DNA of 64,000 nucleotides from positions 1 to 64,000 of the forward strand of contig JAJRXT010000085.1 in the NCBI GenBank assembly GCA_024276125.1. Direction: 5' to 3'. Every line of letters begins with the position of its first letter. Positions within the stretch are counted from its first letter, which is position 1. Made by a program: the position numbers and the translations under genes. Under the pieces are notes generated by a model. The model worked only from the letters and a program-made list of their open reading frames with translations, did not search any database and was not told where the DNA came from. Positions 3,897 to 26,800 of this stretch are shown piece after piece. The stretch comes from a bacterium. Its GTDB lineage: Bacteria > SZUA-182 > SZUA-191 > JAJRXT01.

Positions 3897-4005
3897 ATTA
3901 CTACTGTTGCGACAAGCTGTCAATTTTGCCTTGGGATTGGATTAAAATTAACCAGCGACAAAGCTTTAACTTAAATAATAAATTATAATTGATTAGGAAG
4001 TTAGC

Positions 4006-5595
4006 ATGAAACAAGCAACCTGGAAAAAATGGTTTATATTGTTTTTATTTGTAATGGCGGTACTCTATTTGGCGCCGACGGTTTCAAAAACATTGCCCGG
4101 CTGGTGGCCGGATTTTTTTCCGCAGGATAAAATTCATCTGGGATTGGACTTGCAAGGCGGAATGCACTTGATTTTAGGGGTTCAAACCCAACAAGCGGTA
4201 AATAGCGCCATACAGCAAATTAGCGAAGATTTAAAGGAAGAATTATTAAAAAATCATATTCCCTATAATTCTTTGGTATTAACCAACGCTAATATAATAG
4301 AGCTTAAATTGGTCAACAATAAATTTAAGGATAAATTGAATGAGCTGTTGGAGGATTATCCACAGCTTGAATCGCAAGTTATGGGAAGCGCTGAACAACC
4401 CCTTGTTCGACTTACATTTACTGAAGCGGAAACTAAAAGAATACAAGAGTATGCAGTAAGCCAGGGGCTTGAGATAATCCGCAACCGGGTTGATGAATTT
4501 GGCGTAAGCGAGCCGACTATTCAGCGGCAGGGTGACGACCGCATTCTTGTCCAGCTGCCGGGTATAAAAGATACCAAGCGGGCGATAAAGCTTATCGGCA
4601 AAACGGCGATGCTGGAATTTAAGCTGGTGGATGACGAACACAGTCTGGATGATGCGCTAAAGGGTAAAGTCCCGGCAGGAAGCGAAATTTTATATGAAAA
4701 ATCAATCGATCCAGCCACCGGAAGGGTAATTAAAACCCCTTATCTAATTAAGAAAAAGCTTTTGATGAGCGGCGAGGTGATTACTGAGGCTAGAATGGGT
4801 TTTGATCAGATGAATCAGGCGTTGGTAACTATGGATTTTGATAAACGCGGTACCAAAATGTTTGCCAGAATTACCGAGGCTAATGTAAAACGCCGGCTGG
4901 CTATTGTGCTGGATGGCAGCGTATATTCCGCGCCGGTTATACAAGAGAAGATTCCCGGTGGACAGGCCAGGATTACGGGTCGCTTTACTGAAGATGAGGC
5001 TCGTGATTTAGCCGTGGTGTTGCGGGCTGGCTCTCTGCCTGCGCCGGTGGAAATATTGGAAGAACGTACTGTCGGGCCTTCGCTGGGGCATGATTCTATC
5101 CGGCAGGGTTTGCGTTCTATTTTAATCGGCGGTATTGTGGTAATAATATTTATGGTTTTATACTATCGATTATGCGGTATTGTGGCAGATATAGCCTTAA
5201 TACTTAATTTAATATTTTTACTTGCTATACTGGCCGCTTTTAAAGCTACCCTTACCTTACCCGGTATTGCAGGTATCGTGCTTACCGTAGGTATGGCAGT
5301 GGATGCAAACGTACTTATATTTGAGCGCATAAGAGGAGAACTGGCTTTGGGCAAGACGGTAAGAGCGGCTATTGACGGCGGTTATTCCAAGGCATTTTTA
5401 ACTATATTGGATGCTAATATTACTACTTTAATTGCCGCTTTGGTGCTGTTTCAATATGGAACAGGGCCGATTAAGGGCTTTGCGGTTACTTTGTCTTTAG
5501 GTATCCTTGCCAGTATGTTTACCGCCATAGTAGTTACCCGCATGATTTTTAACTTGGCTTTAGGTAATAGACGCATAACTAAATTGAGTATATAA
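4006..5595 (+). CDS. secD: Protein translocase subunit SecD
   Basis: '[15 protein letters not shown]', '[30 protein letters not shown]', C-terminal TM domain '[20 protein letters not shown]'-like. Confidence 0.97.
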   Translation: [529 protein letters not shown]

Positions 5596-5596
5596 T

Positions 5597-6565
5597 ATGA
5601 AATTTTTAAAAAAGCAGACAAATTTTAAATTTATTTCCATGCGCTATATGGCGTTTATTTTTTCAGCGATATTAATTTTATCCGGGATAACTTCTCTTAT
5701 AATAAAAGGGGGACCTAATTACGGAATAGATTTTGTCGGTGGAACCATGGTGCAGGTTAAGTTCAACAAAGACGGCATATCCCTAAAACAGATTAGAAAT
5801 ATTTTAGATGAACTAAATTTAGGTGACTGCCTTATTCAGCAGTTTGGTGAAAAAGAGGATAATGAAGTGCTTATCAGGGTGGAGCAATCCTCTTCCGATT
5901 TAGAGGGATTAAGTGATACGATCACTCAAAAATTGGCCGAAGTTTTTTCTGTCGATGCCTTTGAGGTTAGACGGGTTGAGATGGTGGGGCCTCAGGTGGG
6001 TAAGGATTTGCGCAGGAAGGGAATCCTTGCTATATTTTATGCTCTTTTTGGTATTTTATTGTACGTAGCCTGGCGCTTTGAGTTAAAATTTGCAGTAGGT
6101 GCAATAATAGCCCTTTTTCACGATATTATTATTACAATAGGTATTTTTTCCATTACTGATAAAGAGTTTAATTTGCCCATAGTAGCGGCGCTGCTTACAA
6201 TTGCCGGTTACTCGATTAATGATACCATCGTTGTATTTGATCGTTTCAGGGAGAATTTCAGATTATTTAGGCGTAAAACATATGAAGAAATTTTGGATAC
6301 AAGTATTAATCAGACATTGTCACGTACGATTTTAACCTCTTTAACCACTCTTTTGGTTACTGCTTGTCTGCTTATATTTGGCGGCGGCGTAATTCGGGAT
6401 TTTGCCTTGGCTTTGACTATAGGGGTTTTAGTAGGTACATATTCTTCTATTTTTATAGCAAGTCCTGTAGTCTTTATATGGCATAGCTTTTTGGGGAAAA
6501 AGGAAAAAGAGGGGAATTTACTGGCCAGTAAAAATGCCGCACTAAATAAAAAACACAGAAGCTAA
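5597..6565 (+). CDS. secF: Protein translocase subunit SecF
   Basis: 'GPNYGIDFVGGTMVQVKF', 'GYSINDTIVVFDRFREN'; 1-bp gap from secD. Confidence 0.97.
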   Translation: MKFLKKQTNFKFISMRYMAFIFSAILILSGITSLIIKGGPNYGIDFVGGTMVQVKFNKDGISLKQIRNILDELNLGDCLIQQFGEKEDNEVLIRVEQSSSDLEGLSDTITQKLAEVFSVDAFEVRRVEMVGPQVGKDLRRKGILAIFYALFGILLYVAWRFELKFAVGAIIALFHDIIITIGIFSITDKEFNLPIVAALLTIAGYSINDTIVVFDRFRENFRLFRRKTYEEILDTSINQTLSRTILTSLTTLLVTACLLIFGGGVIRDFALALTIGVLVGTYSSIFIASPVVFIWHSFLGKKEKEGNLLASKNAALNKKHRS

Positions 6566-7113
6566 TCCTTAGAATAGCTCCGAAAAAGATTATATTCTGT
6601 TATTCTGAGGCCATAAGCCGAAGAATCTAGTTTGACAGTATAGGGAATCCAATTTTAAGGCTAAAGAAAACAACCCGTTATGTGCTACCGGATTCTCAAT
6701 AGGTGTCAGATCTGAGAATCTGACACCACCAGTCTGCCCCGACAGGTGCGATAAGTTCTAGGGGGGGGACAAGCCCAGGGCTGGTACTTTGGGTCGTCCC
6801 TGACCCAAAAGCCTTCAGGCGTCGGGCTTAAGAGACGAGCCCGACTACCGTAACCGTTGTCATTCTTAAGAAGATGCTTCGCTTCAGAATGACAGAAACT
6901 AAATATTTTTAAAGTAGAAGTGAACGGCCCTGGGGACAATCCGCCGCCCCTGCAAGGCAATAAAATCAACAATTTTTATGTCGAACTCAGGTTATACTAA
7001 GTTGCATTCAAAAAGACACTAATTTGGAAAGTCCCTGACCCGGAGTTTTAGATGTCGGGCTTTAAGCGACGGGGTCAAAAAACCTACTCTCGACTACCAT
7101 GATATTTTGATTA

Positions 7114-8907
7114 CTACAAATCAGCCTTAAAATATGGGTGCAGACGCTGGCCTTTATATAAAAAAGCATAAGCGGTATCCTTATTTAATGCAGCTAACTT
7201 TTCTTTATCTTCATTATAAAGTAGAATAGGCTTTAAATCATAGTCATCATAAATCCAATTAAAAAATTGTCCAGCCTGGGTAAAAGACCAAAAATTATAT
7301 AATTCCTGTGCAGAATCTCCCTGAACAATATAAACCTTAGCTCCTTTTGGTAATTTAGGATATATCTTTTTTACATCCTGGCTGCATTGTTTTAATATGT
7401 TCCCGCTTATAATAAACCACCTCGTAGTAATGTGATCGCTTTTAAATTCAAAAGAAAATGCAGTAATAATTCCCACAAAAAATATAACCGAAAATATTGC
7501 AGCCAGCGCCGGACTCTTTTTGGATATACTTACCTTAAAAACATATAGTAAAGCAGCTAAAAATACCGAACCGACAACCAATGGAATATATACAAAATAT
7601 TCCTGCGTCCATGCTTTTAAAAAAAGATAGGGCAATAGACTCATAAAAAACCAGCCGGCGGAAAAAACAAATATTTTTTTTAAATTAACATTTGTTTGGG
7701 TTTTATCTGTTATTAATAGTTTTTTTCTAAAAAGCAAGATTGCCGATAATATAATGAGCAATAATAATGGATCATAATTGCTGTTAAAGGGTATAGTAAG
7801 GTATTTTAATAGCCCTCTTATAACATTAAGACCGAATCCCATGGCATAAGTACCTTGTTGTTCTGTTGAAGATGAGGTGATTCGCGTAAGGTTAAAAATC
7901 AGGTAGGCACAAGAAATAATTATGTACAGCCATATTTTTTTAAATACCTCTAATATCTTCTTAAAATTTAAGCGGCTATCCAAATTTATGGTTATTTCAT
8001 ATAAAAATATTAATGCCGGTATAATAATGGGCGGTTCTTTACAGGCAAGCGCCAAAATAAAAGCCGTTAAAGATAACAGGCGAAAAGCAATAGAGTCTTT
8101 TTTAATATATAAATAAAATGACAGTATAAAAAAGAAGCTCATCTGCCGGGTTGTTTGTAAGGCTGTAAAATATATGGGTTGTACAAATGCCGCTCTGGTT
8201 GCAAAAATAATTGCCGACCAAAATGCGATATACTTGTTTTTCAATAACTCAAAAGCTACCAGATAAACCAGGAGACAATTTAGAGTATGAAGTATAATAC
8301 TGGCTATATGATAATTTCCGGGATTCTTACCTAATATAAATCTGGCTGCCAAAAAGAAGATATCTATCATTGGCCATAGACGATGCGGGTCCATTGACTG
8401 GAAAAATTTACCCTTATGCAAAATTAGTTGCGGAAGTTCACTCAAAGAGCTAAATCTGGCTGCGCGAATGATAAAAGCATAATCGTCATTTACAAACATA
8501 TGGTTTATATAAGAAGAAAAGGTGGTAAACAGGATTAAACTGATAATAATGGTAAGCCATAACAAATTGTTTTGTTTAAATAGCTTGAATTTGTCGGGGT
8601 CTTCAATTTGGTTATAAATTTTATCTAGTCTTTTCTGTAAGGAAAAATTGTTTTGGAAAAGAGTATAGACTGCATAAGCAGTCAATAATATTATGGCATA
8701 ATATAAAAAGGCTATAGGGATGGTTTTAACTACGTCCAGGCTTCGATGGCTGATCTCCAAATCATCTGATACATAGTTGATTAAAAATGATTGTAAATAT
8801 GGTATAAGCCCAAATAGCGCCAGACTGATAAGTGAAAAAATAAATGCTATTTTAGTTATATCATTTGCAAATCGGTTATTTTTTTTGGACATAATATTTT
8901 CTGGCAA
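7114..8907 (-). CDS. GT-C-like polytopic membrane protein (glycosyltransferase-type)
   Basis: About 12 hydrophobic segments; 'FVNDDYAFIIRAA' acidic loop and 'ALACKEPPIIIPAL' resemble PMT/GT-C membrane transferases; start likely at ATG of MSKKNN. Confidence 0.5.
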   Translation of the reverse strand: MPENIMSKKNNRFANDITKIAFIFSLISLALFGLIPYLQSFLINYVSDDLEISHRSLDVVKTIPIAFLYYAIILLTAYAVYTLFQNNFSLQKRLDKIYNQIEDPDKFKLFKQNNLLWLTIIISLILFTTFSSYINHMFVNDDYAFIIRAARFSSLSELPQLILHKGKFFQSMDPHRLWPMIDIFFLAARFILGKNPGNYHIASIILHTLNCLLVYLVAFELLKNKYIAFWSAIIFATRAAFVQPIYFTALQTTRQMSFFFILSFYLYIKKDSIAFRLLSLTAFILALACKEPPIIIPALIFLYEITINLDSRLNFKKILEVFKKIWLYIIISCAYLIFNLTRITSSSTEQQGTYAMGFGLNVIRGLLKYLTIPFNSNYDPLLLLIILSAILLFRKKLLITDKTQTNVNLKKIFVFSAGWFFMSLLPYLFLKAWTQEYFVYIPLVVGSVFLAALLYVFKVSISKKSPALAAIFSVIFFVGIITAFSFEFKSDHITTRWFIISGNILKQCSQDVKKIYPKLPKGAKVYIVQGDSAQELYNFWSFTQAGQFFNWIYDDYDLKPILLYNEDKEKLAALNKDTAYAFLYKGQRLHPYFKADL

Positions 8908-9260
8908 ATCAATTTTGATTTCAACCCCTAATTCGGGATATCAACAATAATTACGTTGCAACATGCTGATTTTAAACATATTTAGGTGAGTTTGTAAAAC
9001 CGTTATATTTTGAGATTTTTTTGTTAATGGTATGTGAAAACCTAACTGAACATTACAGAAAGCATAGATACTACAATTATACTAAAACCAGCTCATAAAT
9101 AATGATTTCCAAAAGAACTAAAACATAAATTAACCACAAAGGTATGCAAAGAATTATCAAGAACCCCTGTATTTCTCAATTATAGTTGTTTTTATATCGA
9201 ATATCCAGTTTTTTTTACGGACAATTTTTTGTGTGGAATAATTTGTAAGTATTATGCTGA

Positions 9261-10532
9261 TTAACCTGATATGGAATTGAATTTTAGAAAGATTTTACTC
9301 AAGCAGTTTTTTAGATTAGGCAGTAGATAATATAGATATGCTAATTTGTTATCTTCTGAGAAGGGATAATATAATACCAACTCCCACGATGGAGGGAAAA
9401 ATATTAAACGCAGAAGTCCCAATTTGGTTTTTAGATCAGTTATCATACGCAGGCGAATCAAGGTTTCTACTACCTTGGAACCATCTGCTATAAGCATTTT
9501 ATCCTTAACCCGCCCTAACCATTTCAACTGAGACCTAGAGCAATGAACACGAAACAAATCAAGTACATCAAGAGGAATAATATCAAAAATAATACTCTTG
9601 GTAAGCCATAAGCCGGCATATACGATAAAGGAAAGTTTATATTTAGCGGCTAATTTATCCAGATTATGCCAGTTAATATTATCCTTATTGTGCTTTACGA
9701 TTTCCGCTAAATCGCAAAATGCCTGTAAGCCAATATTAAGATAATGATTATACAGCGTATGCAAACAGAAAAATAAGATCATATCCTCCACACATAAAGT
9801 ATAGGTGGATATATCGGCTATGATTACTTTCTTGCGCCTGTTCCAGACCTCTTCCATTTTAATAGAAAAAGGGCTGTTAGTTTTAGTAAGGCTCCAATGC
9901 AGGTCTATTTTTAGTCCCAAACCGGATTTAATATGAGAAATAGAACCCAAAGACCAGCCTAATGAAAATTTTTCCTTTTCATGTTTAAAGCCTAAACTGT
10001 TAAGCAGGTGGTTGGCTTTTAAAAAATCTTCTTTTCTAATTAAAAGATCAATATCAGACATACTGCGAAGCGCAATATTTTTATAAAATTGTTCAGCCCA
10101 CAGCCCGCCTTTTACTATAATTACATCAATACCGGCTTTGTCGAATTCATGTATAATTTCTTCTAAGCGCTGATAAAAACATAAATTGTAAAATCCGGCG
10201 GTATGTGCGCTTTTGGCAAATTGTTCGTTTATTTCAGTCGGTACCAAATTATTAAATTCACGCAGATGATGATAAAGCAAAGCGGCAATACGATTGCACA
10301 TTGCTGCTTCTAATATGTAATCCCAATCAAGCGGCGCTTCTAACAGGTCTTTTATACTAGATTTTTCTTTATCCGATAATTGCGTTCTTGCCAAACTAAT
10401 TAATAATTCATTCTCCAGTTTAAAATTATTCATAACGTCTTCGCCCGCATTATTCATAAATTTTGCTAAAATTAAGCCAGACCAATTACAAAACAAGATG
10501 ACAGGCCAGCCTCCTAAAAAAAATAGTTGCAA
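9261..10532 (-). CDS. Nucleotidyltransferase family protein (putative nucleotidyltransferase type)
   Basis: 'IDVIIVKGGLWAEQFYKNIALRSMSDIDLLIRKEDFLKANHLLNSLGF' matches the K-G..R..DIDLL pattern; true start may be an internal ATG (MNNFKLENELL). Confidence 0.8.
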   Translation of the reverse strand: MQLFFLGGWPVILFCNWSGLILAKFMNNAGEDVMNNFKLENELLISLARTQLSDKEKSSIKDLLEAPLDWDYILEAAMCNRIAALLYHHLREFNNLVPTEINEQFAKSAHTAGFYNLCFYQRLEEIIHEFDKAGIDVIIVKGGLWAEQFYKNIALRSMSDIDLLIRKEDFLKANHLLNSLGFKHEKEKFSLGWSLGSISHIKSGLGLKIDLHWSLTKTNSPFSIKMEEVWNRRKKVIIADISTYTLCVEDMILFFCLHTLYNHYLNIGLQAFCDLAEIVKHNKDNINWHNLDKLAAKYKLSFIVYAGLWLTKSIIFDIIPLDVLDLFRVHCSRSQLKWLGRVKDKMLIADGSKVVETLIRLRMITDLKTKLGLLRLIFFPPSWELVLYYPFSEDNKLAYLYYLLPNLKNCLSKIFLKFNSISG

Positions 10533-10615
10533 AAAGCAATCAATTGGAAGCTGACCAACGCCTTATTTTAAATCAGATATCATATGGCTTAAGGTTAATT
10601 CCCTAATTATTGGGG

Positions 10616-11863
10616 TTAGTTCTGTTGATGTAACAGGTGGTTATACTTGGTGGAAACATAGTTTAAAATTTGTTGGTAAGCTTGACAAAAATGGTCTCCA
10701 CCGTCTTTACCGCCGCCGTTGATTAGACGGTGATAAGTGCATCCTCCCCGACAAATATGGTTCCATTTACACTCAGAGCATCTCTTGGGCAGCGTACCAA
10801 AATTGTTTTTAAACTTTTGATATTTTCTGCCGGTTAATACATATTTCAAACTGTTTTGTTCAATATTTCCGAAATTATACTCTTTGTAAGGTAAATAGCG
10901 ATCGCAGCACGGCCATATGCTGCCTTCCTGATCAACCCGAATAATTTTGTGACAATTGCCGTTTAACCAGCAGATATCGTTCCGATAACCCAAAAAAGCT
11001 TTTATCAGGCTGTCGAGTAAATTTATTTTCAATTCATCTATACCGCTGTCTAACCAAAGATCGAATAATTGGCAGACAAAATCCGCATAATACTCTACAG
11101 ATGAATTTGTAACATACAAGTCAGGATTGACGCTTAGATTATGTAAATTGTTTTTAACGAAAAAATCTAAAAATTCTTCAGGCGAACAAAAATTGTTTTT
11201 ATTTATGACAGAAATAACGCCAAAAGATTTATTGTTAAGGTTTAGGCGCTTTATTGCCCGCATTACATTGTTAAAACTGCCTTTTTGCGAAGGATATTTA
11301 CGATGAGAATCATGTATTTTTTTCGGACCGTCCAAACTGATGCCAATTTCAAAATTATTTTTTTTGAAGAAATTGATCCATTTTTCAGTAAGTAAAGTTG
11401 CATTGGTCTGAACGACATTCCTTATTCTGCTATATGTGGAGGCGTATTTTTTTTGTAATTTTAATGCCTTTTCATAAAAATCTATACCGGCTAAAAGCGG
11501 TTCCCCTCCATGCCATACAAATACCAGATTATTAGAGATGCTCATAGCCTGCCAAATAATCTTTGAAAGCATTTGTTCAGACATTATGGCCTTATTTTTA
11601 GAAAAAGCCTTGTGTCCGGGACTGTTAAAGCAGTAATCGCAATTTAAATTACAGCGATAATCTACCGGTGTAATTATGATTGTATTTAATAAGTCAGCTT
11701 TTCTAAAAGAAGCGGATTCTGTTAGGGCGCTATTTCTTTTTATTGACAAAAAGGCGCTTAGCTCATCGGCTTCTTGTTCCTGATGATGCGCTATCAGTTC
11801 TTTTAAGCGTTGATGCTGATTTTTATGCTGGTTTGCGTTTTTATAAAGTACATTTGTTTTCAT
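10616..11863 (-). CDS. Radical SAM protein with SPASM domain (peptide/sulfatase-maturase-like)
   Basis: CxxxCxxC motif 'CNLNCDYC', 'VWHGGEPLLAG', C-terminal SPASM-type cysteines 'CCDRY...CSECKWNHICRGGC...C'. Confidence 0.92.
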   Translation of the reverse strand: MKTNVLYKNANQHKNQHQRLKELIAHHQEQEADELSAFLSIKRNSALTESASFRKADLLNTIIITPVDYRCNLNCDYCFNSPGHKAFSKNKAIMSEQMLSKIIWQAMSISNNLVFVWHGGEPLLAGIDFYEKALKLQKKYASTYSRIRNVVQTNATLLTEKWINFFKKNNFEIGISLDGPKKIHDSHRKYPSQKGSFNNVMRAIKRLNLNNKSFGVISVINKNNFCSPEEFLDFFVKNNLHNLSVNPDLYVTNSSVEYYADFVCQLFDLWLDSGIDELKINLLDSLIKAFLGYRNDICWLNGNCHKIIRVDQEGSIWPCCDRYLPYKEYNFGNIEQNSLKYVLTGRKYQKFKNNFGTLPKRCSECKWNHICRGGCTYHRLINGGGKDGGDHFCQAYQQILNYVSTKYNHLLHQQN

Positions 11864-12125
11864 TGTGTAATAAACCCAAGTTTGAAAAATCGGTTATAAT
11901 TTTTTCTAAATCCTTTTTTACATCATGGTCAAAGCTTAATTTATAGGTACTTTTTAATTTTCTTTCAACTTCATCCAGCCTGGTGGTTCCGTCACAGCAG
12001 TCCCATACTATTTCAGCGGTAAGGTTCAAAATATGTACGGTTTCCTGGTTGGTGTCATACAGCATGGCTTCATTGCCTATTTTACGTCTTAATATTCCTG
12101 ATTTTTGTTTTGGCAGTGTCTGCAT
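11841..12125 (-). CDS. PqqD-like peptide chaperone / RRE protein
   Basis: 94 aa; 'GNEAMLYDTNQETVHILNLTAEIVWDCCDGTTRLDEVERKL' PqqD fold signature; overlaps both neighbours. Confidence 0.85.
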   Translation of the reverse strand: MQTLPKQKSGILRRKIGNEAMLYDTNQETVHILNLTAEIVWDCCDGTTRLDEVERKLKSTYKLSFDHDVKKDLEKIITDFSNLGLLHNENKCTL

Positions 12126-12645
12126 TTGGTGTCTCCTTGTCTCTTTTTACTGGTGTATTATTATTATGCTGTTTAATTATTGGTGGTTTTTCTTTGGTTA
12201 AATAAACAGCTTTTGAATATGAATAAATCGCCATAAAAAAATTTAAACTACGCCAAAACAAGCAATTGCAATTAATGGTGAAAACAGGCGTTATTATTTT
12301 TTCAACCTTGCCCAAAATATTTTCTTTTGACAATACCAGCTGATCAAATTGTTTATTAAAATCTCCTTTGGTTAGATAGAGTGAAAATAATGGTGTTTTT
12401 TTGATGCGTTTGACTACGCGGTGTGCGATCAATCTGTCTTGGTGGTGAAAAACGACAATCTCGCCCAGCCTGATTTTATTTAAGTTGTGCTCAACAACCA
12501 ATCTACTGCCCGGTTTAATAAATGGCCACATGCTAAAGCCGGAGAGGGTGGAGGCGCTGTTTTCTCCCAATTTGCCCCAAATTTCTGTTATTGCTTTTAT
12601 TTGCAGGGCTGTAGGTCTTTTTTCTACATTTGAGGTCTTTAACAT
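12082..12645 (-). CDS. S24/S26-type signal peptidase-like protein
   Basis: 'GFSMWPFIKPGSRLVVE..IRLGEIVVFHHQDRLIAHRVVKR' peptidase S24/S26 signature; overlaps pqqD-like ORF. Confidence 0.8.
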   Translation of the reverse strand: MLKTSNVEKRPTALQIKAITEIWGKLGENSASTLSGFSMWPFIKPGSRLVVEHNLNKIRLGEIVVFHHQDRLIAHRVVKRIKKTPLFSLYLTKGDFNKQFDQLVLSKENILGKVEKIITPVFTINCNCLFWRSLNFFMAIYSYSKAVYLTKEKPPIIKQHNNNTPVKRDKETPNADTAKTKIRNIKT

Positions 12646-12650
12646 ACCGA

Positions 12651-13679
12651 TTATTGTTCTATTACTTCTTTGATTAAATCAAGTGTTTTTTCTAAAGAGC
12701 CCGGCAACAGGAAGTAGCATTTTAGATCATTGAATATCGGCGTTAGTGAAAAGAGTGTTTTTGCAGGTTCGTCAATTCGGACGTAGGAAGATGACATGGT
12801 ATATTGGAGGGCGTCTCTGGCCTTGGCGTTTTTTACTTGGGGTTCTTCTTTAAAGCCTTTTAAAATGAAAAAATGGGCTGCGCGACAATGCTGGTTATTG
12901 GCGCCCATATTCAAATCCCTTGGATTTATAAGCCAACGCTGTTTACCGTCGCTGCCTTGGTAAATTTGTTGTTTTTCAGAAAGAATCGGTTTAAAAAAAT
13001 CTATTGAATTCTCTCTTAGGCAAATACTTTTGGGAAAAGGGCGCAATTTATGGGTATCAAGTTCAAAACAGACCACCTCGTCGGAGAGAAAATCAAAGCC
13101 CTTATTAGCCAGCCCAAGGCTTAGAGTGCTTTTTCCGCTCATAGTTTCACCGGCGAGTATTATTCCCTGGCCATTATAAGAAAGGCTGGCTGCATGAAAG
13201 AAAAAGCATTCTTTTGACATACTTGCAATAAGTATGGTAATCAAAAATTCGGCAATAGAATATAGCTGTTCATTATCGTCTTGGTTGTCTAAAATATTTA
13301 TTTCCGTAAGCGGCGGTTTGGTTTTGGGACTCACTCCCAGATAAGCCAGATTAGCTTCTTTTTGTTGTGAATCTTTGTAGATACTTATAATACCATTGTC
13401 TGTTTTGTATATGAAATGAGTGCAAAAAGGGGACTGTAGTATAAGGTGAGAGTTGAGCTGACCATTTTCAAAAAAATTAATTTCTATAGTATTAATAGTA
13501 TCTTTTTTAGAAAAATAAGAAAATAATTGTTCTAATACTTGCAACAAATGAGGTGAGTTAGATTTAAACTTAATTTTTAAATCAAAGAAATTATAAGAAT
13601 TATGAAAAGGTAAACCGACTTTGTTTAAATCAGCTATATTATATTGTTTAATTTTTTCGTAAATACTGGCTAGTTTCAT
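12651..13679 (-). CDS. HPr kinase-related P-loop protein
   Basis: 'FFHAASLSYNGQGIILAGETMSGKSTLSLGLANKGFDFLSDEVVCFE' (HprK-like Walker A and DE motif). Confidence 0.82.
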   Translation of the reverse strand: MKLASIYEKIKQYNIADLNKVGLPFHNSYNFFDLKIKFKSNSPHLLQVLEQLFSYFSKKDTINTIEINFFENGQLNSHLILQSPFCTHFIYKTDNGIISIYKDSQQKEANLAYLGVSPKTKPPLTEINILDNQDDNEQLYSIAEFLITILIASMSKECFFFHAASLSYNGQGIILAGETMSGKSTLSLGLANKGFDFLSDEVVCFELDTHKLRPFPKSICLRENSIDFFKPILSEKQQIYQGSDGKQRWLINPRDLNMGANNQHCRAAHFFILKGFKEEPQVKNAKARDALQYTMSSSYVRIDEPAKTLFSLTPIFNDLKCYFLLPGSLEKTLDLIKEVIEQ

Positions 13680-14008
13680 AACTTATTTTATGAATTTAAG
13701 GTGGTATATTTACTTAAAACAACATCCTGAATAATTGCTTTAAGTGGACATAAATATTATTTGCAATGATTTGTGGCAAACCTGTGCTATAACGACACCC
13801 CCGCATCATTTTGGGTGTTGCTTGTTCATCGCCACAACATGTAGTATGGTAGCTTATCCATGTCTACAATGTCAAGGAAAAAAATAAAAAATTTGCAGCT
13901 ATTGCTAAAGTTCCGGCAGGCATGTGCCGTTTTGTTTTTAAACAGCATAAAAAACATAAATTCTCTGCTAAAGATTAACGCCCGAATTATTCGGGCTATT
14001 GCTATTTT

Positions 14009-14190
14009 GGCTTAAGAAAAAATAACTTCCACATTTTCGCATCTAATCTTCTAAGTCATATTCAAATGATCTTCAAAAGCAACATCATCGAATTAGCGCT
14101 GCTAGTCCTCAAATTTTGCTTTAATCAGATCGTTTTGGGTCTAACCCAAATTTTAGCGCGAAAATGCGCAACTTATTTTTTTCTTAAGCC
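14009..14190. repeat. MITE-like element family B, copy 2 (variant termini)
   Basis: ggcttaagaaaaaataacttccacattttcgcatctaatctt...cctcaaattttgct...gcgaaaatgcgcaacttatttttttcttaagcc; shares interior with copy 1. Confidence 0.7.
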
Positions 14191-14680
14191 CTTTGTTGTT
14201 GCTTTCATTATAAGGTTGATATTGTTTTTGTGAATAAATCCGAATATTCTTTTTATATACAATTTTTATACCATTAAAAAAAATGGAATATTTCCACCTA
14301 TTGAGAGTATCATTATTACAAAAGGCACGGTTGCTGATTAATGTCTTTTGGGTGAAGGTGTGGTTAATCTCACTGTGGCTCGTTTGTACATGACTGATAT
14401 GGTTGATTGTGAAAAATGGTATAACTAGTTGAAAATTATCATGAATAACTTGTCTTTTACCTGTTTTCTTGTTATACTATAAAATATAGGTGGTTTTGTT
14501 GTATTATTTTTATGAGGCGCTTGATATGATGTATCCTTCCCGCTCAAAAAAACCATAATAAAACTTAATTTCTTGTGCAAGCGATAATATATTCGACTAT
14601 TGGCGTTCGTGTTGTTTTGTCTGATTGATTGTCGCCTTGGGTATGGATTTAGAACGCCTACGAGTACGGCGCTGCGTCAG

Positions 14681-14698
14681 TTTTTTTTTGGGGGGGGG
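14681..14698 (+). repeat. T9G9 homopolymer tract upstream of giant surface protein gene
   Basis: tttttttttggggggggg read directly, about 140 bp before the ATG at 14840. Confidence 0.9.
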
Positions 14699-14839
14699 TA
14701 GCTTATGTTGTAGCTATGATGGCTTTAGAATGATAGTGAAAAAACTGATGTTTTTAAGCATGGAACATAGCGAAACATAAATAAATTTTTCGGGTTTATG
14801 TAAAAGGTGCATCTTTTTATTTAAATGAGGTAGTGATCT

Positions 14840-17800
14840 ATGTATAGGTCTGTTGTTAAGAATATTGGGTATAGGTTTACCTGTTGGGCTGTCTTATTCG
14901 GCTTGGCAGGTTTTTTTATAAATACCCCTGCGTATGCGGTGGATTATACAGTACCCGGTACTCATGCGGATTTACAGAGCGCTATATACAGTGCGGCGGC
15001 CGACGGCGCCAACAGTAACATAACTATTACGGCGGCAGGAGTGTATAACGGCCCCTTTGTGGTGCCGTATACCGCATCCGAGCGTTCATACGAGTTAAAC
15101 ATAATCGGTACCTCATCACTTAGCCGCGATCAGATTATCTTAGATAATCCTACCGCAGGTATTGCCCGCGGTATTCCCATACCCGCCGTAATAGCTGCTG
15201 AATTCGACGTTATAGGCACCATGCAGGTTACTGGTATGCCCATGAAATTAAGCCATTTAACCATTACCGCATCGGAAATATTACAAAACGGCGGCATGGA
15301 AGGAACATATAGCGCAGGACTTGCCCCCGACTGGGCTAAAAGCGGCGCCATATCTGTTTCTGAAGTAACCTATGATACCATGGCCGCACTTGAAGTCTTA
15401 GACGGCGACCAGGCCCAAGCCTTTACCAATTCCGATATCAATAACTATATCTATACAGTAATCCCCGGCGCCAGTTTAGGCACAGAGCGTACCTATACCT
15501 TCAGTATATGGTTCAGGCGCACCGGCGGCGCCGGTAATGTTATCGCCCAATTAATCGGCGCAGCCACGGCCAGCCTATCCACATCAATAGTAAATTACCC
15601 GGATATGTATAATCAGTTAACCTATACATTTACCACCCCGGCCATAGCTGCCGACTTAACTATCAAACTTTACTGTTCTGATACCGCAACCTCTGCGGTG
15701 GCTGACGGTGCGGCAATAGCCTCGCCGCTTACAGCCGGCGTATTTTTTAAAGGACCGGCCGCAGCCAATAGCTTACAAGGCGTATCAGACTGTGTGGTGC
15801 GCAATATCGGCCATATATCCAAAAAAGCAGGCAATGCTTACCAGCCGGCCAGCTGGGCGGATTTGGATGACCCCATGATAGGCTATGGCGATGATGTACA
15901 CGGTAACGCTATTGTAGCCTTTTCCGGCTCCACTCCGCTTATTACAGATAATGATATCCGCTATAATTACGATGGCGTAAGCATTGCCGATAATACCTTA
16001 GGCTCAAGCGGAGTACAAGGCGATAACCCGCGCTTGTGGAGTACCGATTATGCCGATTATACCTACTGGCAGATGGGGCAGCGCATCCGCTATAATGCCC
16101 GCTTTGGCGTTGCCGTGCGAAACGGCGCAACACCGTATATTGGTATGCGCGACGGCGGCGGCGCTTGGCCGCTTGATTATGCAAATGATATATCCGCTAA
16201 CGGCTTCGCCAATATCGCCATGCAGGATGATTCGGCTCCGCGGATTTATTATAATTTTATTCAGGGTAATTTCGATTATTTATATGACCTGTATTATGCC
16301 GGAGAGCGCAATCCCAGCGGACGCGGGATAATCGGCAGAGAGAATTCGGCGGCTATAATCGTCGGCAACTGGATATTCGACCATAATAAGGCGGGTGTTG
16401 CTGTCCGTGACAATGCAACGCCGCAGGTGGGCTATGCTGCAAGCTGGCTTACCGATCCCACCGATGTTAGAGTCAATAATATATATGGCAATAATTACTA
16501 CAGCGTATTAGACGTATCCGATCCGGATTATATCGCCTGTACGCACGGAGCCTTTGATAATATAGATTGTGCGGCCGTCGGTTCCATGGACGGAGCGCAG
16601 GCTGATGTATACAACAATTATATAAACTACAATTATTTTGCCGGAGTGGGCTCGCGTGACTGGGCGGCGCCTGATGTGCGCAGCAATTGGCTTGAGGGCA
16701 ATGTACTGGGCATGTCGTTTATGTCGGTACGCGACTCATCCACTGTCGCGGCGCGCATTGGCGGCTCTGCCGCAGGCGAAGGCAATGAAATGTACTATAA
16801 TGAAATCGGTATTGCCATAAGAAACAGCGGTAACCGAGTAAACCGCGTACTGATTGAAGGCAACCAGATTTATGAAAATGTGGATACCGGCCGCGGAGTT
16901 GGTATTGCCGTTAATAATTCATATGTCAATATAACCGATAATACGATCTCATCCAATGCTTATGCCGATCTGCCTTCGGGCAGAAAATCGGCTATTGCCT
17001 TATTCAATAGTTCAGACGCTAAAATTACCTATAACCGCATATTAAATAACTTAGGCGTGGGAATATCCGCTCAGGATTCGGTAGTGGAGATTGAAAACAA
17101 CCTGATTGCCGATAATTTTAGCGGTACTTACGGCTACGGGGTAATGTTGGGCGGCGTAGACGGCGATGATTATATTGGTTATTTATTTAACGGCGGGTTT
17201 GAAGACGAGCAATTAGGTTCTGAGACCTGCTGCTACAGCGTAGCGCCGGAATGGAAAATGGCCGGCAGCATCTGGGCGACTGAAAATACTGCTGATACGC
17301 TGGTAGGCAGTTCTTCTCAGGAATTCGGCGTAGGCGGCGCAAACAGCAGTTATTTATACTATCCTGCAATGGTTGCCGCCGGCTATCAGTATCATTTCAG
17401 CGGTTTTTTATATAAAACAGCGGGTACGGGTACGCTTTATGTACAATTATCGGAACCTGCATATAACAGCGTATATACTACGCTTAGCGTATCCGGCGCC
17501 GGCTGGACTCAAATTTCGCATACATTTCAGGCTGTATCTGATGATCTATACGTAAAAATTTATGCAACAGGCGCCGGAACCAAGGGCGTGGCTGATGATT
17601 TTGAGCTTATAAAGACTAAACCCGGCAGCTTAGTTAAAAAGTTTAATCATAACCTGATGGTAGGCGACGCTTGGTATTTCGGGCGGTATGATACCAATTT
17701 GGTCTATATTGAAGGTAATACCAATGTACGGGAATTAAAGCATAATATACTGGGTCGCTGCCGATTGGGCGTGTTGGTTGAACCGGGACAATCTGAGCAT

Positions 17801-20800
17801 ACAGGCTCTCTGCCGGTACAAGGCGCTCTGGCGGCTAATGAGATAAAGCTGGCAGCAGGCGCCTCCAGCGTGGATGATGCTTATGTTGGCATGGTTTTGG
17901 TAATTGATGCCTCAAGTTCCGCTATCCCCAAAGAGGCGGTTGTAACCGCCTATAACGGCACAACGCAAGTTGCTGCGATTGAATATCCTGTATGGGTTAC
18001 TGCGCCGGCTGCCGGTGAGACCTACACACTATATAGTCGTAGAGGACGGCCTGATCCGGGGAGTATAGATTATAACTTGGTATATGCCTGGGCCGCGGGC
18101 GCTGATACGGACGGTGTATCAGACGGTTATATGCTAAACGGTCTGTTGCCGGGCGAGAATACCTATTATTACGGCGAGTATTACGGTAGTCCAGTTGCCG
18201 CATTTTTTAAGGATTCCAATCACGAAAACGCATTGGTGCAGGATTATCATGTACAAGAGGATGCGCCGATATACAGTTATACGTATAGAAACGGCGCTTA
18301 TGATTGCAATGGCACGCATTTGGGACCTGATTGTAATTTCACCTATCCGCCGGTTGATTATCCTTATTATTGGCCGACGGATACCCCCTTTCCGGCAGCG
18401 CCCGCCGCAGATAGCGCCGCGCCGCAGCTTATTTCTATAAATCCAGCGGACGGATACGCTACAGCCTCAGCTAACACCAGAATTACCATATACCTACAGG
18501 ATCAGGGTACTGGGACGGCTAACAGCGGGTTCTCAGCAGGCGGGATTACCCGCAGCAGTCTACAGGTACAAATAAACAGTCCAACCTACAGCGCTGTATA
18601 TACCTATGGAGATCCTGAGTTAAGCATACTGCCGGATTATAACAATGCCTCGCAATATAACGTATTATTTACTCCGTCTGGCTCACTGGGAATCGGTACG
18701 GTTAATGTGGGGATTTCTGTTGCTGACGTACAGGGGAATATTTACAGCACAGGCACGCCGTATAGTTTTACTACGGTAAGCGGCGATGCGGCTGCTCCGC
18801 AAATTGTAGATTTCTTTCCAAAAGCTGAAAACAGTTGTATTACTTCACACTTACAGCCGGCTGATATACCGATTCAATTTGACCTAGTAGATACTGCATC
18901 CGGGGTTGATATAGAAAGCGGCTCTCTTACAGTACAGACTTGGACTGCCGGCGGCGCCTTGCCCCAGAGCCTATATAATGGGTCTATTTATTCTTATACT
19001 GTAACCAAAAATACTCCGCTATATTCCAGTTATACGGTTTTTTACCGCCCGGACTGCGATTATGATAACAGTGTAGTGGTAAGCGCAACTGTAGCGGCTT
19101 ATGATCAGGAAAACAACATACTTTCTACGCGCCGTAAATTTTGTATAGCGGCAGATACTACGCCGCCGGAAGATGTCGCTTATTTTAAGGCAAAGGTAGT
19201 TGCCCAAGCGGTGGTTTCCTTAACTTGGGATGCCAGCGTGGACAGCCCGTTATATGACGGTTCGCGCCCTGATCCATGCGATACCGGCGATTTGAGCCAC
19301 TATGAGCTTTGGGTATGCGGCGCTGATATTACAGACAGCCTGATATGCACTTTCGGCGACTGGCAGTTGTGGAGAACCGGTATCAGCAATGTTGCTGTCA
19401 GCCTTGATTTATACGATCTGCCTGAGGGTAAATATAAGTTCAGGCTGCGGGGCGTGGATAATGCGGGCAATAAGAGTATTGGCGCCTTAAGCAATAAAAA
19501 TGTATTTTATCCGTATGGCGAGCCGGTTACCCTTTATACGGGCTATTTTGATGATAATTATGATGGTATGAGCGATGATTTTTCCGGGATGTATTTAAGT
19601 AACTGGCTGCATCTAGGCGACGGAGCTTTCAATATAAGCGCTTCTAAGCTGGCGGTCTCAAGCAGTGATGCGGAGCTATTGGCTCATGATTTTAGCGCCG
19701 GTAATTTTGAATATACGGCAGATTTAACATTGGGCGCCGGCGAGGCCGGTTATCTGCTTATGCGTAAGCTTGAAGACAGCGAGGTGGGTTCCACCGGTTA
19801 TGCGGCGTTTGTGGATTTGGCAAACAGCCGTATCGGTATTTATCATTTAGGCGATGCTGCGGTGGTAGCCCAAACGGCGATTACGCCCAATACGGGTACC
19901 TATAATATGAAAGTAACTGCTGTCGGTAACCAGATAAGCCTTACCGTAACAGGCGCCGCCAGCGGCAGTACCAGCTATAATACTGCTACGACTTACAGTT
20001 TTGGGCAGGTTGGTATATGGCAGCCGGATACGGGAAGCGGTTTGACGGTTTCTGTGGTGGAATTTGACGATATAGTAATTAAAGACTATACCGACCGTTG
20101 GAGTTCTACCGGTTCATGGAATACTACGGGTACAGTCGGCGGAAGTTACAGCATGCAGCCATTATCTGATAATCAGGATATACAGGTAACTGATTTGGCG
20201 CTGCCGGACAGCTTTATTTTGCAAGCCGATGTAACTATAGGGGCGGAAGGCTCTGAAGGCTGCCTGATGTTTAATAAAGAAAATGAGGGTTCGGTTGTAA
20301 CCAGCGGTTATATGGCCTGTATTGAGACTACAGTTACCTCAGATTATGTAAGAATATACCGCAAAGACGGTAATCTTGCCACCCCGATAGCTACTACCAC
20401 TTCGCAAACGATTGATACCGGAACTACTTATCATTTAAAATTAATGGTATCCGGCTCTACTATAGCCTTATACGGATCATCTACCGCGGTAAAGCCGTAT
20501 GATTATGACCGCTGGGCGGTAGCCTCTGATTCTACTTATAGTAACGGAGCGGCGGGTTTCTGGCAGCAGACCGGTAAAGGCGCCGATGTAACCTATGACA
20601 ATTTAACCTTTGGCGAGACGTCTGCTTTTAGAATACCAGATTCATCTTTAGGCAATCAGTATATAGTAACTTATTATGCTGGTAATCCCACTCAGCAGTA
20701 TAATACTATTCAGAGCAAGATAAACAATGCTTCATATGGTGATTATCTATATTTTGCCGGTTGTAACCCGTCTCAGGTTATTTATGATATCGGAGATAAT

Positions 20801-23800
20801 ATTATTCAGTTAAAACGCGGGGTGAGTTTGCTGGGCGACGGTCCTAGTTGTACGATGATTCGCGGCAGCGGCCTTGCGGTTATTACGGCGTCAAATGAAA
20901 GCACTATTGAGGGTATAAGAATAAGCGGTACAAACAAAAAACCCGTTGGGATATATTGCGGTAATACATCTCCTATGCTGATTGATAATGAAATAGTTAG
21001 TTGTCACGATGGTATCCGAATCGGTGGAGTTGACGGTACGCAGCCTACTATTACCGGCTGTGCGATTTATGGTAACGGGCGCATGGGGATTGGTAATAAT
21101 GTATTTTCCGCCGCTTGGATTTTTGATAATAAAATTTGGGGCAACGCCCTGCTGGGCATCGGTTCCCGCGATAATGCACATCCGCGGATAGAGGATAATC
21201 TAATCGGCTCAGCCGGCGCGGCATCTCAGCCGTGGCAGCAGGGTAATGGTTATGTGGGTATAGGCAACCGCGGCAGCTCATTTGCTAAAGTGGTGCGTAA
21301 CCGCATTAAGCAGAATTATGGTTTAGGCATAGGTTCCCGCGCTGACTCAGCGCCTACTATAGAGCGAAATATTGTAAATGATAATTCCGTTCATGGAATA
21401 GGCAGCTACAAAAACAGTACGCCCACTATAATAAGCAACCGCGTATATAATAACAGTCGTATAGGTATAGGCTCTCACGATGATGTACAGGCGGTTATTT
21501 CGTATAATACGGTATACAGCAACCTGGATCGTATTGGTATTGCCACACTGGAACAGGCTGTCGTAACCATAAATAATAATATAGTCTATAATAATAAGGG
21601 AATCGGTATTGGCTTTGGCGATGGTTCTCCGGCTTTTACCGGTACGGCCACTGTATACGGAAATCAGATTTTTGCCAACGGCGATAGCCCTAATGATTCC
21701 GGCGGGATAGGAGCGCAAGGTCTTACCGGAAATGCCAGTATAACTATTAAAAACAACAGGATTTATTCACAATATTATCAAAATGCCATAGGATTTTTAA
21801 ACCTCAATCCGTCGGGTAATGATCAGGCGAATATTACCATTCAGAATAATATAATAGATAATTCTACTGTAACCAGTAACGGCGATTTTGGCATAGAAGT
21901 ATACGGCGGTTACGGCTATACGGTGAGTATTACCGGCAATACAATAAGAAACTTCGGACGCTCGGGTATGCGGCTTATGAATTTAAGTACGGCCAGCGCA
22001 GTAACCGTACAGAATAATAATATTACCAGTTGCGGCGCCAAGGATTATGTTTATGCCTACAATGCTAATATGACATGGACTAACAGCGTGATTTACTCCT
22101 GTCCAGATACAGACGGCTGTCCCGCCGCCATGGGCGTACAACTGACCGACTCTCATCTGTCAACTTCCAGCGTAACTGGCAATACCATAGCCTACAATAC
22201 TTATTCAGGTATTGGTATGCGCAATACGGATGGTTTTATTAATGCCAGCAATCAGGTTTATGAAAACGGTAATCTGTATACAGTGCCCGGTACGGGCGGA
22301 GGAGATATCTGTCCTCGCTGCGATCCTCTGGGCGCCGGCGCTTCAAGCGGAGATGGCGGAGTGACAGTAACGGCGTTGCCCGGCGGTGAAGAGCTTCGTA
22401 TTTATGAAAACGGCAATGAAATATACAACAACAATGTAGGCGATATTAGGATCAAACCGGGAACTCTCGGTACTGTTTACTTGAATGATTCGCAGGTACC
22501 CGGAGGTTCCAGCGGCGGTCAACTTAATGGTTACGGGGTGGTGTATGACTGCTTTGATTCGGCTGATGCAAGCCCCGGCGGAGAGTGTAATACTACTGTA
22601 ACCGGCATGACCTTTTCCGGTAATGATCGCTATGGAATACTTGTTCGCGGCCCGTATTCGCAGAATCTGATTATTGAAAATAACATTATTCAAAGCAATA
22701 TGACTGTCTCGAACAGTAACAATATTATTTGCGCCGGCACGGCTAATGAAGATCATGTCGGCGGCGGTATAGCCTTAACTTGCGGTGCGCGTCCGGTTAT
22801 CAGAGATAATATTATAAGAAATAACGGAGCAGATTTGCGTTCCGAGGGCAAAGGCAGTCATTCCGGGATTAACATGTGGCAGGCCGGCGATACTCAGATT
22901 TACAGTAATGAAATATACGGTAATGCTAATGACGGCATAGATTTGCGGGATACGCCTATTGTCACCACTGATCCAAAATATGTCGGAGTAGGTCCGCCTC
23001 AAATCGGCGTAGCCGGGCAGACTGCCAATAAAATACGCAACAATGCCCGCTTCGGAATTGGCGCTACTGACGCCAGCAGTCTGGAGGCGGGTTATAATGA
23101 ATTATATGAAAACCAAAGCGGCGGTATAGGTTTTTATCAGTTGACCGGTACGGCCAATATTTACAGCAATTCCATTTACAGTAATACCGGCAGTTCCTTA
23201 TCCGAGGTGGGCGGAATCGGGATGAAGTACCTTTCCGGTACGGTCAATATTCGTAACAACATTATCAGGCACAATGTATATACAAACAGTTATGATTATC
23301 CGGCGGGGATTGGTGTGTATCGGCCTACTGGCGGTTCTTTGACCATTGAGGGTAATACGATCACATCTAATCAAGCGCACAGTTATTCGGATGCCGGCGG
23401 AATTGGCTTAAAGGGGCTTTCCTCTGCTAGTAAGGGGACTTTAAGCAATGTCTATATTACCAGCAACCGTATTAGTCATCACAAGTACGGCACGGGCAAT
23501 CAGGCGGCTGTATCCTTTAAATGGCTTGATTTGTCTTCCGGCAACATCACCATCCGCAACAACAAAAAGGATGGTATGGGGCTTTACGACAATGCTACGG
23601 GGGTAAGGTTCAAGGAGTTAACCAATGCCAATGTAACTATCAACGATAATCTCATCCAGAGCAATATCAATCCTTCAGGAGAGGGCGCTTCGGCAGTGGG
23701 ATTCAGGGGGTATAGCAGCGGCTCTCCGATGACGGGCGTTAAAGTGGATATAAATAATAACATAATGTCAAACAATAGGTTTACGTATACCGCTTATGAT

Positions 23801-26800
23801 AAGGCTTCGGTAACCTTTAAATATTGTAAATTATACAGCAGCGATTATATAAAAGTACGGGGCAACCGGATCAACAATACAGGTAATAACGGCATAGAAT
23901 TCCGTTATGTGGGCGGAGTGACCGGTCATGTAGCCCATGTGTATATTGGCACCGACGCTGAGGCCCCGGGCGCCAGCAATGATATCCTGAACATTCCGGC
24001 CTCGCATAACGGTATCCGCTTTGAAGACTGCACTTATGGCGACGGGGTGCAGATGAATATCCTGAATAACAACAATGTTGAGGGTGGAATCGTATTTCGG
24101 GACACCAAGCTGACAGGCTTGTATATTAAGGGTAACGCCAATATTTATGATGGACATACTCCCGGCGGTATGGGCGGTATGATGGGAGTGTGCGAGTGCG
24201 GTATGGGTATGCCGGATTGGGACAATAACGGCATACAGGGCAAGGTGAACACCTATGCTTACGGCAGCGGCGGAGTGATACCCATTGAGATTAACAACAA
24301 CGGCATCCGCAACAACGGCAAACTGGGTGTTTTTCTGCCTATAAAGAATGATGTCGGAACAGTAGCTCTGAATGTGGAGGGTAATACCTTCGAGCATAAT
24401 GGCTGGGCGGGCTTTTTCAGCCCCAGCGGCTCTTCCGCCTGCCTTGATTCGTTCATTTTCAGCGGCAACACGATATACGACAACGGTTTGATAGGCGGCA
24501 ACAGCCCCGGTTATGATTCAGACGGAGTGGTGATGAGGTGTTTGTCTGCTTCGGTGGGCGCCAAGTTTACCAATAACATTATTCACAGCAACAAGGTTAA
24601 CGGTCTGAGTCTCAGGGACTGCGACGGGGTGACTGTTTCCGGCGGTAAATTTTATAGTAACGGCATTCGCGGCATTGGCAGCAGAAATTTTAGCAATTTT
24701 ACTGTTGAGGGCGGCGCATGGATATATAGTAATGGCAAGCTGGCCGGCAGCGAAGACGATTGGTGCGGGGTTGGTTTTGATGACGCTACTGTTACGGTAA
24801 GGGACAGCTTTGTATATGGAAATTACGGAGCCGGCATTGCGCTGCGGGACGTGGTTAACGGAACCATTGTTAGCAATCAGATTTATGACAATCGGAAAAC
24901 GGGGATTAAATTCTTGCGCTCTAACTCTACCTTGACTATTCGGAACAATACGATTGTAAGTAATGGTCAGGATGATTACATAGATAATTCCGGCTTGAGG
25001 GATGCTTCAGGTCTGCGTGCCAAGGACAGCACCTTTGCAAATATAACCGATAATATTTTCAGAAACAACAAGTTTTCCGGTATTGCCTCTTATAATACCG
25101 ACGGTTACATCGGTCCAAACAATGAAATCCGGTATAATGGAGATACCGCTAAAGGCGGCGGCGACTGCGGTGGTTTACAGGGTCCCGGCAGCGGCGACGG
25201 AGGGGTGGCCGTACGGAACTTGGGTACATACGATACCCTGATCGTATCCGGTAACACTGTGGAAAGCAATTATCTGGGTTCGGTGAGCCGCAAGGACTGC
25301 AAGGGTACGGTGAGATTAGACGGTCAAGGCGTAGACTGCGCCCCTTATTGGGATAGGGCTGACGCTAAGGTTTACGTGGGGCCTGATGGAGTGTATGTAA
25401 ACAATAGCTTCCGCAGCAGTAGTTTTACGGTGGATTGTACTGATCCCCTCTATAATGATCTGGCTGGCGGTATTACCGGCGGCAAGGTTTGGGGCGTTGC
25501 TATAGTCGGCGGGATCAAGAATGTAATCTTCAGGAATTGTACGGTAAACAATAATATGACTACCGATAATAACCTAGGCGATCAGGGAATCTCTGTGGGC
25601 GGCGGCGTTTTAGTAGGCCCTGGGGTTGAAGCTGAGGTATATAATAATACAATCTATAATAATGGTTTTGAAATAGCGCAGGGTTCCGGCGCTCTTGCAG
25701 TGGATGGCAGCTATACAACCGAATGGATGACACCGACTGATGATACGGTAGAGCCGCATTGGATTAAGTTTGATACAGGTACTTCCAGCCAGACAATAAC
25801 CAAAGTGCAGATATATGCGGCAGCCGGCAGCGTAGCCCGCAGTTGGGATGTATATGTACATAACAGCACCAATTGGAATAATATAGGTAATGTATTGGAT
25901 ACCTTTACGGCAGGCGGTTCCGGCGCCGGCTGGTATGAATCGGCTACCTTTAGCGGCTCGGGACGTTATATTACCTTAAAATCTTCCGGCGGCTCGGTTA
26001 GTGACGGTGATTTTGCGGAATTTCAGTATTATAATGGCGCAAGTTATGTTACGCCGGATTTTCATCAGGTATGCGCTTCATTATTGGGCGGTAATTCTGG
26101 AGTGACGCTGCGTTGTGTAGGAAATGTAAATATTCATGATAACAACATTTACAGCAACTGGAATCAGGGTATTGAAGGACGTAATGTCATAGGTACAATC
26201 GGACCTAATAATTTAGTGCACGATCACACGAAAGCCAACAGAGTGATAGGCTTTAGGAACTATATAAACGCTACTATATATTCCAATGAGGTTTACAATA
26301 ACAATTATGGCGGAATCGGCGTCAATTCCATAATAGGTACGGTTATAATCGACAAAAATTATGTGCACGACGGCGGCAATAATATCTTTCCAGGTATAGG
26401 TATGTCCAATAATGACGGTACTGCTGTCTTTATTGCTAGGAATAATACGGTTGAAGGACATAAACAGAGTTTTGAAGCACAAAAAAGCGAAGGCGCTTAT
26501 CCTTTAGATATACAGATTTACTCCAATACAGCCGATGTGGAGCCAAACGGCGCCGGCTGGAATGGTGTACGTTTCAGGCAGTTAAAGGGCGCCAGTATAT
26601 CCGTTAGAAATAATGTGTTAACCGGCGGCGCGTCTTCTTCGAGATTCGGTATTATGTTTCAGGATAATGGTTGGTACAGCACTAGTGAGCATACCGATAT
26701 AACCATTTATTCCAATACAATCTTAAATTTCAAAAGAACGGGAATCAGAACCCAGGATAATGTCAACACCACCATTACGATAAGTAAAAACAACATTACC

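Follow-up and report, generated by a model that had tools for sequence, protein, structure and literature searches.

A probable peptide maturation cassette with an HprK-like kinase and a SPASM radical SAM enzyme, and its candidate precursors encoded in trans

What substrate could bring together an HprK-like kinase, a signal peptidase-like protease, a PqqD-like protein, a SPASM radical SAM enzyme and a nucleotidyltransferase? We addressed this question for a five-gene cassette in a 64,000-nucleotide stretch of bacterial DNA (the window; contig C26:1-64000 of the source genome G000, a 2.98-Mb assembly that is 94% complete, from a phylum represented by only nine genomes in the collection searched). 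The original prediction was of a peptide- or protein-modifying system with its own leader peptidase and no obvious precursor. Our analysis supports a system of the type that matures ribosomally synthesised and post-translationally modified peptides (RiPPs), with its own leader peptidase. Precursors do exist, directly upstream of the kinase in a second genome, G003, and most likely in trans in G000; they had been missed because they are encoded elsewhere in the genome. We consider it likely that the locus is a RiPP maturation cassette of the kind described for linear polyphosphorylated peptides (LPP), plus a SPASM radical SAM enzyme, acting on short precursors encoded on contigs C114 and C146 and, in a stop-interrupted copy, on C69. 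This assessment applies to the cassette and its trans precursors, not to each chemical step.

All five genes were verified on the minus strand by their coordinates, as earlier given, and by domain matches (Table 1). Their description as overlapping holds for the second and third junctions (44 and 23 nt), but not for the first, with a spacing of 5 nt, or the last, an 83-nt gap. This gap is reckoned to a TTG start of the nucleotidyltransferase, the longest open reading frame (ORF) of which covers 9261-10532; alignment of homologues sets the likely start at the ATG at 10433, about 180 nt away. The kinase carries H162, the Walker A motif GETMSGKST and the sequence SDE, matches Hpr_kinase_C weakly (21 bits, under the cut-off) and is 40-41% identical to its G003 homologues. 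The PqqD protein scores 32 bits with PF05402 against a cut-off of 23.4, and is 55-56% identical to its counterpart on G003:C4. The radical SAM enzyme matches PF04055 (64.7 bits) and PF13186 (36.9 bits), each above the cut-off, and the nucleotidyltransferase matches PF14907 with 192.8 bits; PDB sequence searches with the nucleotidyltransferase and with the PqqD protein gave no match. The protease, first described as S24/S26-type, matches the archaeal-type signal peptidase I model TIGR02228 (56.6 bits, cut-off 51.85), and its closest PDB sequences are Sec11A and Sec11C. It has a candidate triad of S38, H75 and D102, with D95 also invariant, and a model of moderate confidence (mean predicted local distance difference test score 67.5) places a helix at 13-26, where an N-terminal membrane anchor would be. 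It is probably a Sec11/SipW-type enzyme with no evident N-terminal membrane anchor, and a putative leader peptidase.

Among the genomes searched, close homologues were observed in just one besides G000, namely G003, which belongs to the same class. Contig C4 of G003 (locus L028) has all five genes in identical order at 37-56% identity, and because this order recurs the set is more than a chance grouping. On G003:C2 (L027) we observed the kinase and radical SAM genes only, and on G003:C142 (L060) the kinase and PqqD genes with no radical SAM gene. The cassette-type kinase subtype is confined to these two genomes out of 145 searched. No close homologues of the kinase or the PqqD protein were found in the closer relatives of G000 (same family, same order), and the spread is therefore patchy. 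With the radical SAM enzyme as query, a contig scan gave one distant match from Bacteroidota, and a tblastn search of plasmids returned relatives of sulfatase maturases, about 30% identical.

Each of the three G003 cassettes is preceded, immediately upstream of the kinase gene, by a small ORF; these ORFs encode peptides of 48-56 aa, and purine-rich stretches precede their start codons. These precursors read ...YDKPRIVASYTQKELHEEFRGLRGLTFFVDLKKP on C2, ...YTKPRIVISYTKETLKEEFKELKGATVKFDLF on C4 and ...YEKPLVVARYTEEELKDQFRELRGQSFHPIVEPGF on C142, the last found by a profile of the other two (E 5e-10). A profile search of G000 revealed precursors on C114 (...YKKPEIEVSYSKEELKKEFKGLQGQTTFMDDTGHGVLFQDKFKEE) and C146 (...YIRPEIVVSFDRLTLRNEFKQLHGQTLFYDMLPPSTVMEIDESYAAFGEL) and a copy on C69, YEKPQIIT*YSRQELKNTFKGLQGQTSFIDVPGPPFGGG..., broken by TAA; a fourth G003 precursor, on C122, is an orphan. 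A six-member precursor profile matched 2 of 290 genomes, at three loci in G000 and four in G003 (E 1e-11 to 1e-24). Six of these seven matches are the profile's own members and only the C69 copy stands outside it, so that the informative part of the search is the other 288 genomes, which gave no match at E 0.001. The genomes that carry precursors are the same two that carry the cassette-type kinase. Next to the cassette itself, an ORF at 14425-14580 on the minus strand (TTKPPIFYSITRKQVKDKL) was rejected as a precursor; it scored 5.7 bits with a two-sequence profile, equalled by 17 of 1000 shuffles, and 3.8 bits with a subtype profile. A broader profile run over 13680-14839 reached 0.4 bits at best, equalled by 788 of 1000 shuffles, and a local precursor was rejected here too.

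The precursors share a YxxP leader, replaced by YxxS in one of the seven, and a core motif G-x-[T/S]-x-F-x-D, in which the Thr or Ser is conserved in every peptide. Counting from this residue (position i, after L-x-G-x), Phe at i+2 and Asp at i+4 are present in all three G000 precursors and in those on G003:C2 and G003:C122. The C2 precursor adjoins an intact radical SAM gene. In the C4 precursor Lys occupies i+2 and the Asp is retained, and the accompanying radical SAM gene (L028 7883-9046) has degenerated, having lost both CxxxCxxC and the GGEP motif; its radical SAM core is down to 33-42% conservation against 51% between intact enzymes, whereas its SPASM half, at 50-53%, compares with 54% between the two intact enzymes. 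In the C142 precursor, from the cassette with no radical SAM gene, His and Ile replace Phe and Asp. The F-x-D tripeptide thus accompanies intact radical SAM genes, and precursors next to a degenerate gene, or in a cassette that has none, lack it; the sample is small, three cassette-linked G003 cases plus G000, and action in trans is possible. We propose F-x-D as the target of the radical SAM enzyme. Its chemistry can be suggested only tentatively, at somewhat less than even confidence, most likely as a three-residue Phe-Asp cyclophane or else another modification of the Phe and Asp. The Thr or Ser is the best candidate for the kinase because in four precursors it is the sole hydroxyl residue past the leader helix, and we regard its phosphorylation as a possibility falling just short of an even chance.

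How might these proteins work together? The closest guide is LPP biosynthesis, published in 2026 for lppAKBSDN of Paenibacillus alginolyticus, with a toolkit of a SipW-like peptidase (LppS), a RiPP recognition element (RRE; LppB), an HprK-like kinase (LppK), an NTP transferase (LppN) and a transporter (LppD) (PMC13381572). LppB binds YxxP and hands over the leader for cleavage after T-1 by LppS (S29/H68/D93), and LppK adds several phosphates to Ser3 (PMC13381572). The cassette likewise has a SipW-type peptidase with Ser, His and Asp (S38, H75, D102/D95), predicted to cleave a leader, together with a discrete RRE, an HprK-like kinase and an NTP transferase, and it has no macrolactam cyclase. 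The likeness of the kinase is one of similarity only, since its 66.8 bits with HprK_rel_A lie under the model cut-off. The precursors resemble those of LPP in a YxxPx[hydrophobic] leader, here YxxPx[I/V], and a variable C-terminus. Unlike LPP, the cassette has a radical SAM enzyme in addition and its precursors are in trans; these carry SYxxEELxxEFKxLxGx[TS]xFxD and lack the HQxIxFETxxS of the LPP sequence YxxPxVLxHQxIxFETxxS. LPP is also limited to Bacillota (PMC13381572), in contrast to the sparsely sampled phylum of G000. The cassette works like LPP plus a radical SAM enzyme, and by its precursors, and with no transporter among the scanned ORFs of the window, it is not a member of that family.

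Two further families share parts of this toolkit. Phosphorylated lasso peptides of the paeninodin type (PadeK; PsmK/PsmN; PMC9266682) also combine an HprK-like kinase, an RRE and a nucleotidyltransferase with [Y/W]xxP-type leaders, and in pseudomycoidin PsmN adds hexoses to the phospho-Ser (PMC9266682). In contrast to these, neither the five genes nor their scanned neighbours include a macrolactam synthase or B2 protease. SPASM enzymes that form cyclophanes link an aromatic residue to the one two positions further on, with W-x-D, F-x-N and Y-x-D known (PMC11002830). The cassette resembles such triceptide makers (OscB/GrrM, XncB, YxdB; PMC11002830) in its SPASM radical SAM enzyme and in the aromatic-x-polar tripeptide of the core, which is F-x-D in three precursors of G000 and two of G003 and for which a cross-link is predicted. 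It differs in the added kinase, RRE, protease and NTP transferase, and the F-x-D chemistry suggested here comes with model scores that are all under the cut-off. Several cyclophane makers are among the best NCBIfam matches of the enzyme, with the curated GrrM/OscB cyclophane-maturase model at 168.6 bits against a cut-off of 310. The HPr-rel-A association invoked in the original prediction did not hold up in a hidden Markov model check; the same kinase and PqqD superfamilies are present, but the kinase scores 66.8 against a cut-off of 200 (TIGR04352) and the PqqD protein 22.6 against 35 (TIGR04353).

From the genes, the precursors, their shared motif, their joint presence in the same pair of genomes and the match of F-x-D to intact radical SAM genes, all observed here, and from the roles that the RRE, kinase, protease and NTP transferase have in relatives, we infer an order of steps and the pairing of the cassette with the trans precursors. 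The PqqD/RRE protein would bind the YxxP leader, and the radical SAM enzyme would act on the F-x-D tripeptide. The HprK-like kinase would phosphorylate the conserved Thr or Ser two residues before the Phe. With the RRE as its guide, the S26B-like protease would take off the leader, and the NTP transferase may then modify the phosphate with a group derived from a nucleotide or sugar.

Several observations weigh against this reading. No precursor was detectable by profile search on the 90.9-kb cassette contig, and the pairing of cassette and precursors comes from two genomes and seven peptides. None of the window ORFs that were scanned with Pfam encodes an MsbA-like transporter. In LPP the phosphosite is a residue other than the Thr preceding the cleavage site, and no phosphorylation was seen when that phosphosite was changed to Thr (PMC13381572), so the conserved Thr or Ser could instead be the site of leader cleavage. 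An F-x-D product was not found among described cyclophanes. The best model for the radical SAM enzyme is the sulfatase maturase TIGR03942, at 290.2 bits against a cut-off of 349.45.

The alternative that survives best, which we nonetheless consider unlikely, is a phosphopeptide system of the LPP type whose radical SAM enzyme is an accessory or hits another residue, with F-x-D merely a feature for recognition or for the protease. LPP itself works with no radical SAM enzyme (PMC13381572), G003 retains cassettes in which the gene is degenerate or absent, and the degenerate copy has kept its SPASM half as well conserved as that of the intact pair, suggesting a binding role. However, the G000 and G003:C2 enzymes retain all cluster cysteines, and F-x-D tracks them.

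The giant gene divergent from the cassette encodes a secreted right-handed beta-helix protein, previously suggested as substrate or co-regulated product. G000 has two giant (>4000 aa) beta-helix genes, one divergent from the cassette on C26 and one divergent from the precursor on C69, and these paralogues share 57% identity over 2433 aa. Each of the three G003 cassettes has, as its direct upstream neighbour, one of the three best-scoring long proteins with PPC, carboxypeptidase-regulatory and dockerin domains; used as queries against one another, these proteins match at 39-43% identity over about 410-440 aa, the remaining matches being short stretches, and the L060 protein is split over two ORFs. 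The chance of such adjacency is roughly 5e-6 for G000 and 1e-9 for G003, figures calculated after the pattern had been seen and with loci counted as independent, even though one giant is a paralogue of the other. The linkage of giant gene and cassette looks non-random. It could reflect duplication and later partial loss of an ancestral locus that held the giant gene, a precursor and the cassette. When the upstream regions of the two giant genes, on C26 and C69, were compared by blastn, no convincing DNA homology emerged. This adjacency in both genomes could also mean that the cassette directly modifies the giant protein or a region of it, which we judge very unlikely, as it is the small YxxP peptides that co-occur with the cassette and are conserved, whereas the neighbours differ between G000 (beta-helix) and G003 (PPC/dockerin). 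The earlier suggestion thus stands as regards linkage, and as regards a substrate it is unsupported. The giant ORF has an in-frame TAG at 28838-28840 inside a LamG domain (DGQVD*VVIYKRAL) and a frame change at about 34826-34828, the whole reading extending over about 14840-37286; these interruptions are either assembly errors or decay.

A rival view, of the radical SAM enzyme as an anaerobic sulfatase maturase with unrelated neighbours, scarcely deserves credence: beyond its top NCBIfam model, its top PDB match is 4k37 and a conserved Asp after a SPASM Cys aligns with Asp277 of the anaerobic sulfatase-maturating enzyme, the catalytic base of that enzyme, but the model score is under its curated cut-off, a single sulfatase-family protein was found in G000 and it lacks [C/S]-x-P-x-R, as do the G003 matches, the enzyme forms its own clade (support 100/100) with a PCCD insertion and an N-terminal helical extension of about 60 aa, and its gene is grouped with those for the RRE and kinase, and with the kinase gene in G003 too. 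The sulfatase-maturase role was rejected on the lack of a sulfatase with this motif in the 94%-complete genome and on the score under the cut-off. Nine Cys in the C-terminal half of the enzyme are invariant in the three relatives.

The same toolbox recurs in the phylum, in systems that are separate from the cassette. A second precursor subtype, ending ...SYSEEELLEE.GPIQACSGF..., occurs in G005, G006 and G007, with shorter matches in G002 and on G000:C158. Operons of this subtype also encode secreted proteins, and in three of these the C-terminal tail is rich in Tyr and Trp, possibly a modification or sorting signal. Elsewhere in G000, C41 (L030 2574-5896) carries a separate lasso-like cluster with a PqqD protein, a B2-like protein, a second HprK-like kinase and a 65-aa precursor-like ORF (KKYNPPTMRIYSS...TCFCTDVSCPVYC...), and C155 (L029 469-2205) encodes a 578-aa protein in which an S26-type protease is fused to an NTP_transf_5 domain. 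Beside two G003 cassettes lie homologous small secreted proteins (L027 5496-6155 and L060 9487-10062; 39% identity), of which that in L027 passes the PEP-CTERM model, and G003:C32 has an ORF of 13,481 aa with beta-helix repeats. The window also contains two copies, 81% identical, of an inverted-repeat element of about 165-180 bp resembling a miniature inverted-repeat transposable element (about 14009-14190 and 51576-51739), and a single ORF (59758-62355) joining an IF-3 N-terminal domain to a P-type ATPase, either a true fusion or an assembly artefact.

Table 1. Positions of the cassette genes, their neighbours and related features (window coordinates unless a locus is named).
Feature	Coordinates	Strand	Remarks
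HprK-like kinase, 342 aa	12651..13679	-	first cassette gene; H162, Walker A K183, D200
S26B (SipW/Sec11-type) soluble serine protease, probable leader peptidase	12082..12645	-	S38/H75/D102 candidate triad
Discrete RRE of the PqqD family, 94 aa, probably binding YxxP leaders	11841..12125	-	PF05402 above cut-off
Radical SAM/SPASM peptide maturase (putative), 415 aa	10616..11863	-	CxxxCxxC intact, PCCD motif
NTP_transf_5 nucleotidyltransferase, about 390 aa	9261..10433	-	KGG...DxD motif; PF14907
Intergenic region, kinase to giant gene	13680..14839	.	site of precursor in relatives; none detected here
Giant secreted right-handed beta-helix protein	14840..28840	+	divergent neighbour of cassette; linked to it
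Giant paralogue	L118 (G000:C69) 2076-14999		divergent from stop-interrupted precursor copy at 1047-1223
Second-subtype precursors	L063 8803-8976, L064 8611-8775, L065 9300-9545, L066 2238-2399		upstream of HprK/PqqD/radical SAM operons, G005-G007
Shorter second-subtype relative	G000:C158 (L119:11546-11713)		
Tyr/Trp-tailed secreted proteins	L063 3360-5057, L065 4331-5923, L064 8817-9641		tails ...WYLYPCCWYWM, ...WYSIPEWYLWM, ...SQLWPYWYW

Among open-licence papers we found none uniting an HPr kinase, a radical SAM enzyme and such a precursor. On one precursor family the system would bring together phosphorylation of the LPP/paeninodin type and modification by a SPASM radical SAM enzyme, two RiPP chemistries of whose combination we found no description. 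At its boldest, and we think this rather doubtful, it may represent a class of doubly modified RiPPs in a small, sparsely sampled phylum, cross-linked at F-x-D by the radical SAM enzyme and phosphorylated on the nearby Thr or Ser, to which a nucleotide or sugar would then be added, the peptides being scattered over the genome as partners of the adjoining giant beta-helix or PPC/dockerin proteins, and the SPASM-only pseudo-radical-SAM protein serving as a binding scaffold in one variant. The precursors supply concrete, testable substrates and residues (the Thr or Ser, the Phe and the Asp), and a natural series runs from an intact radical SAM gene through a degenerate one to none, with precursor cores that match. 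The linkage to large secreted proteins is a lead on the function of LPP-like peptides.

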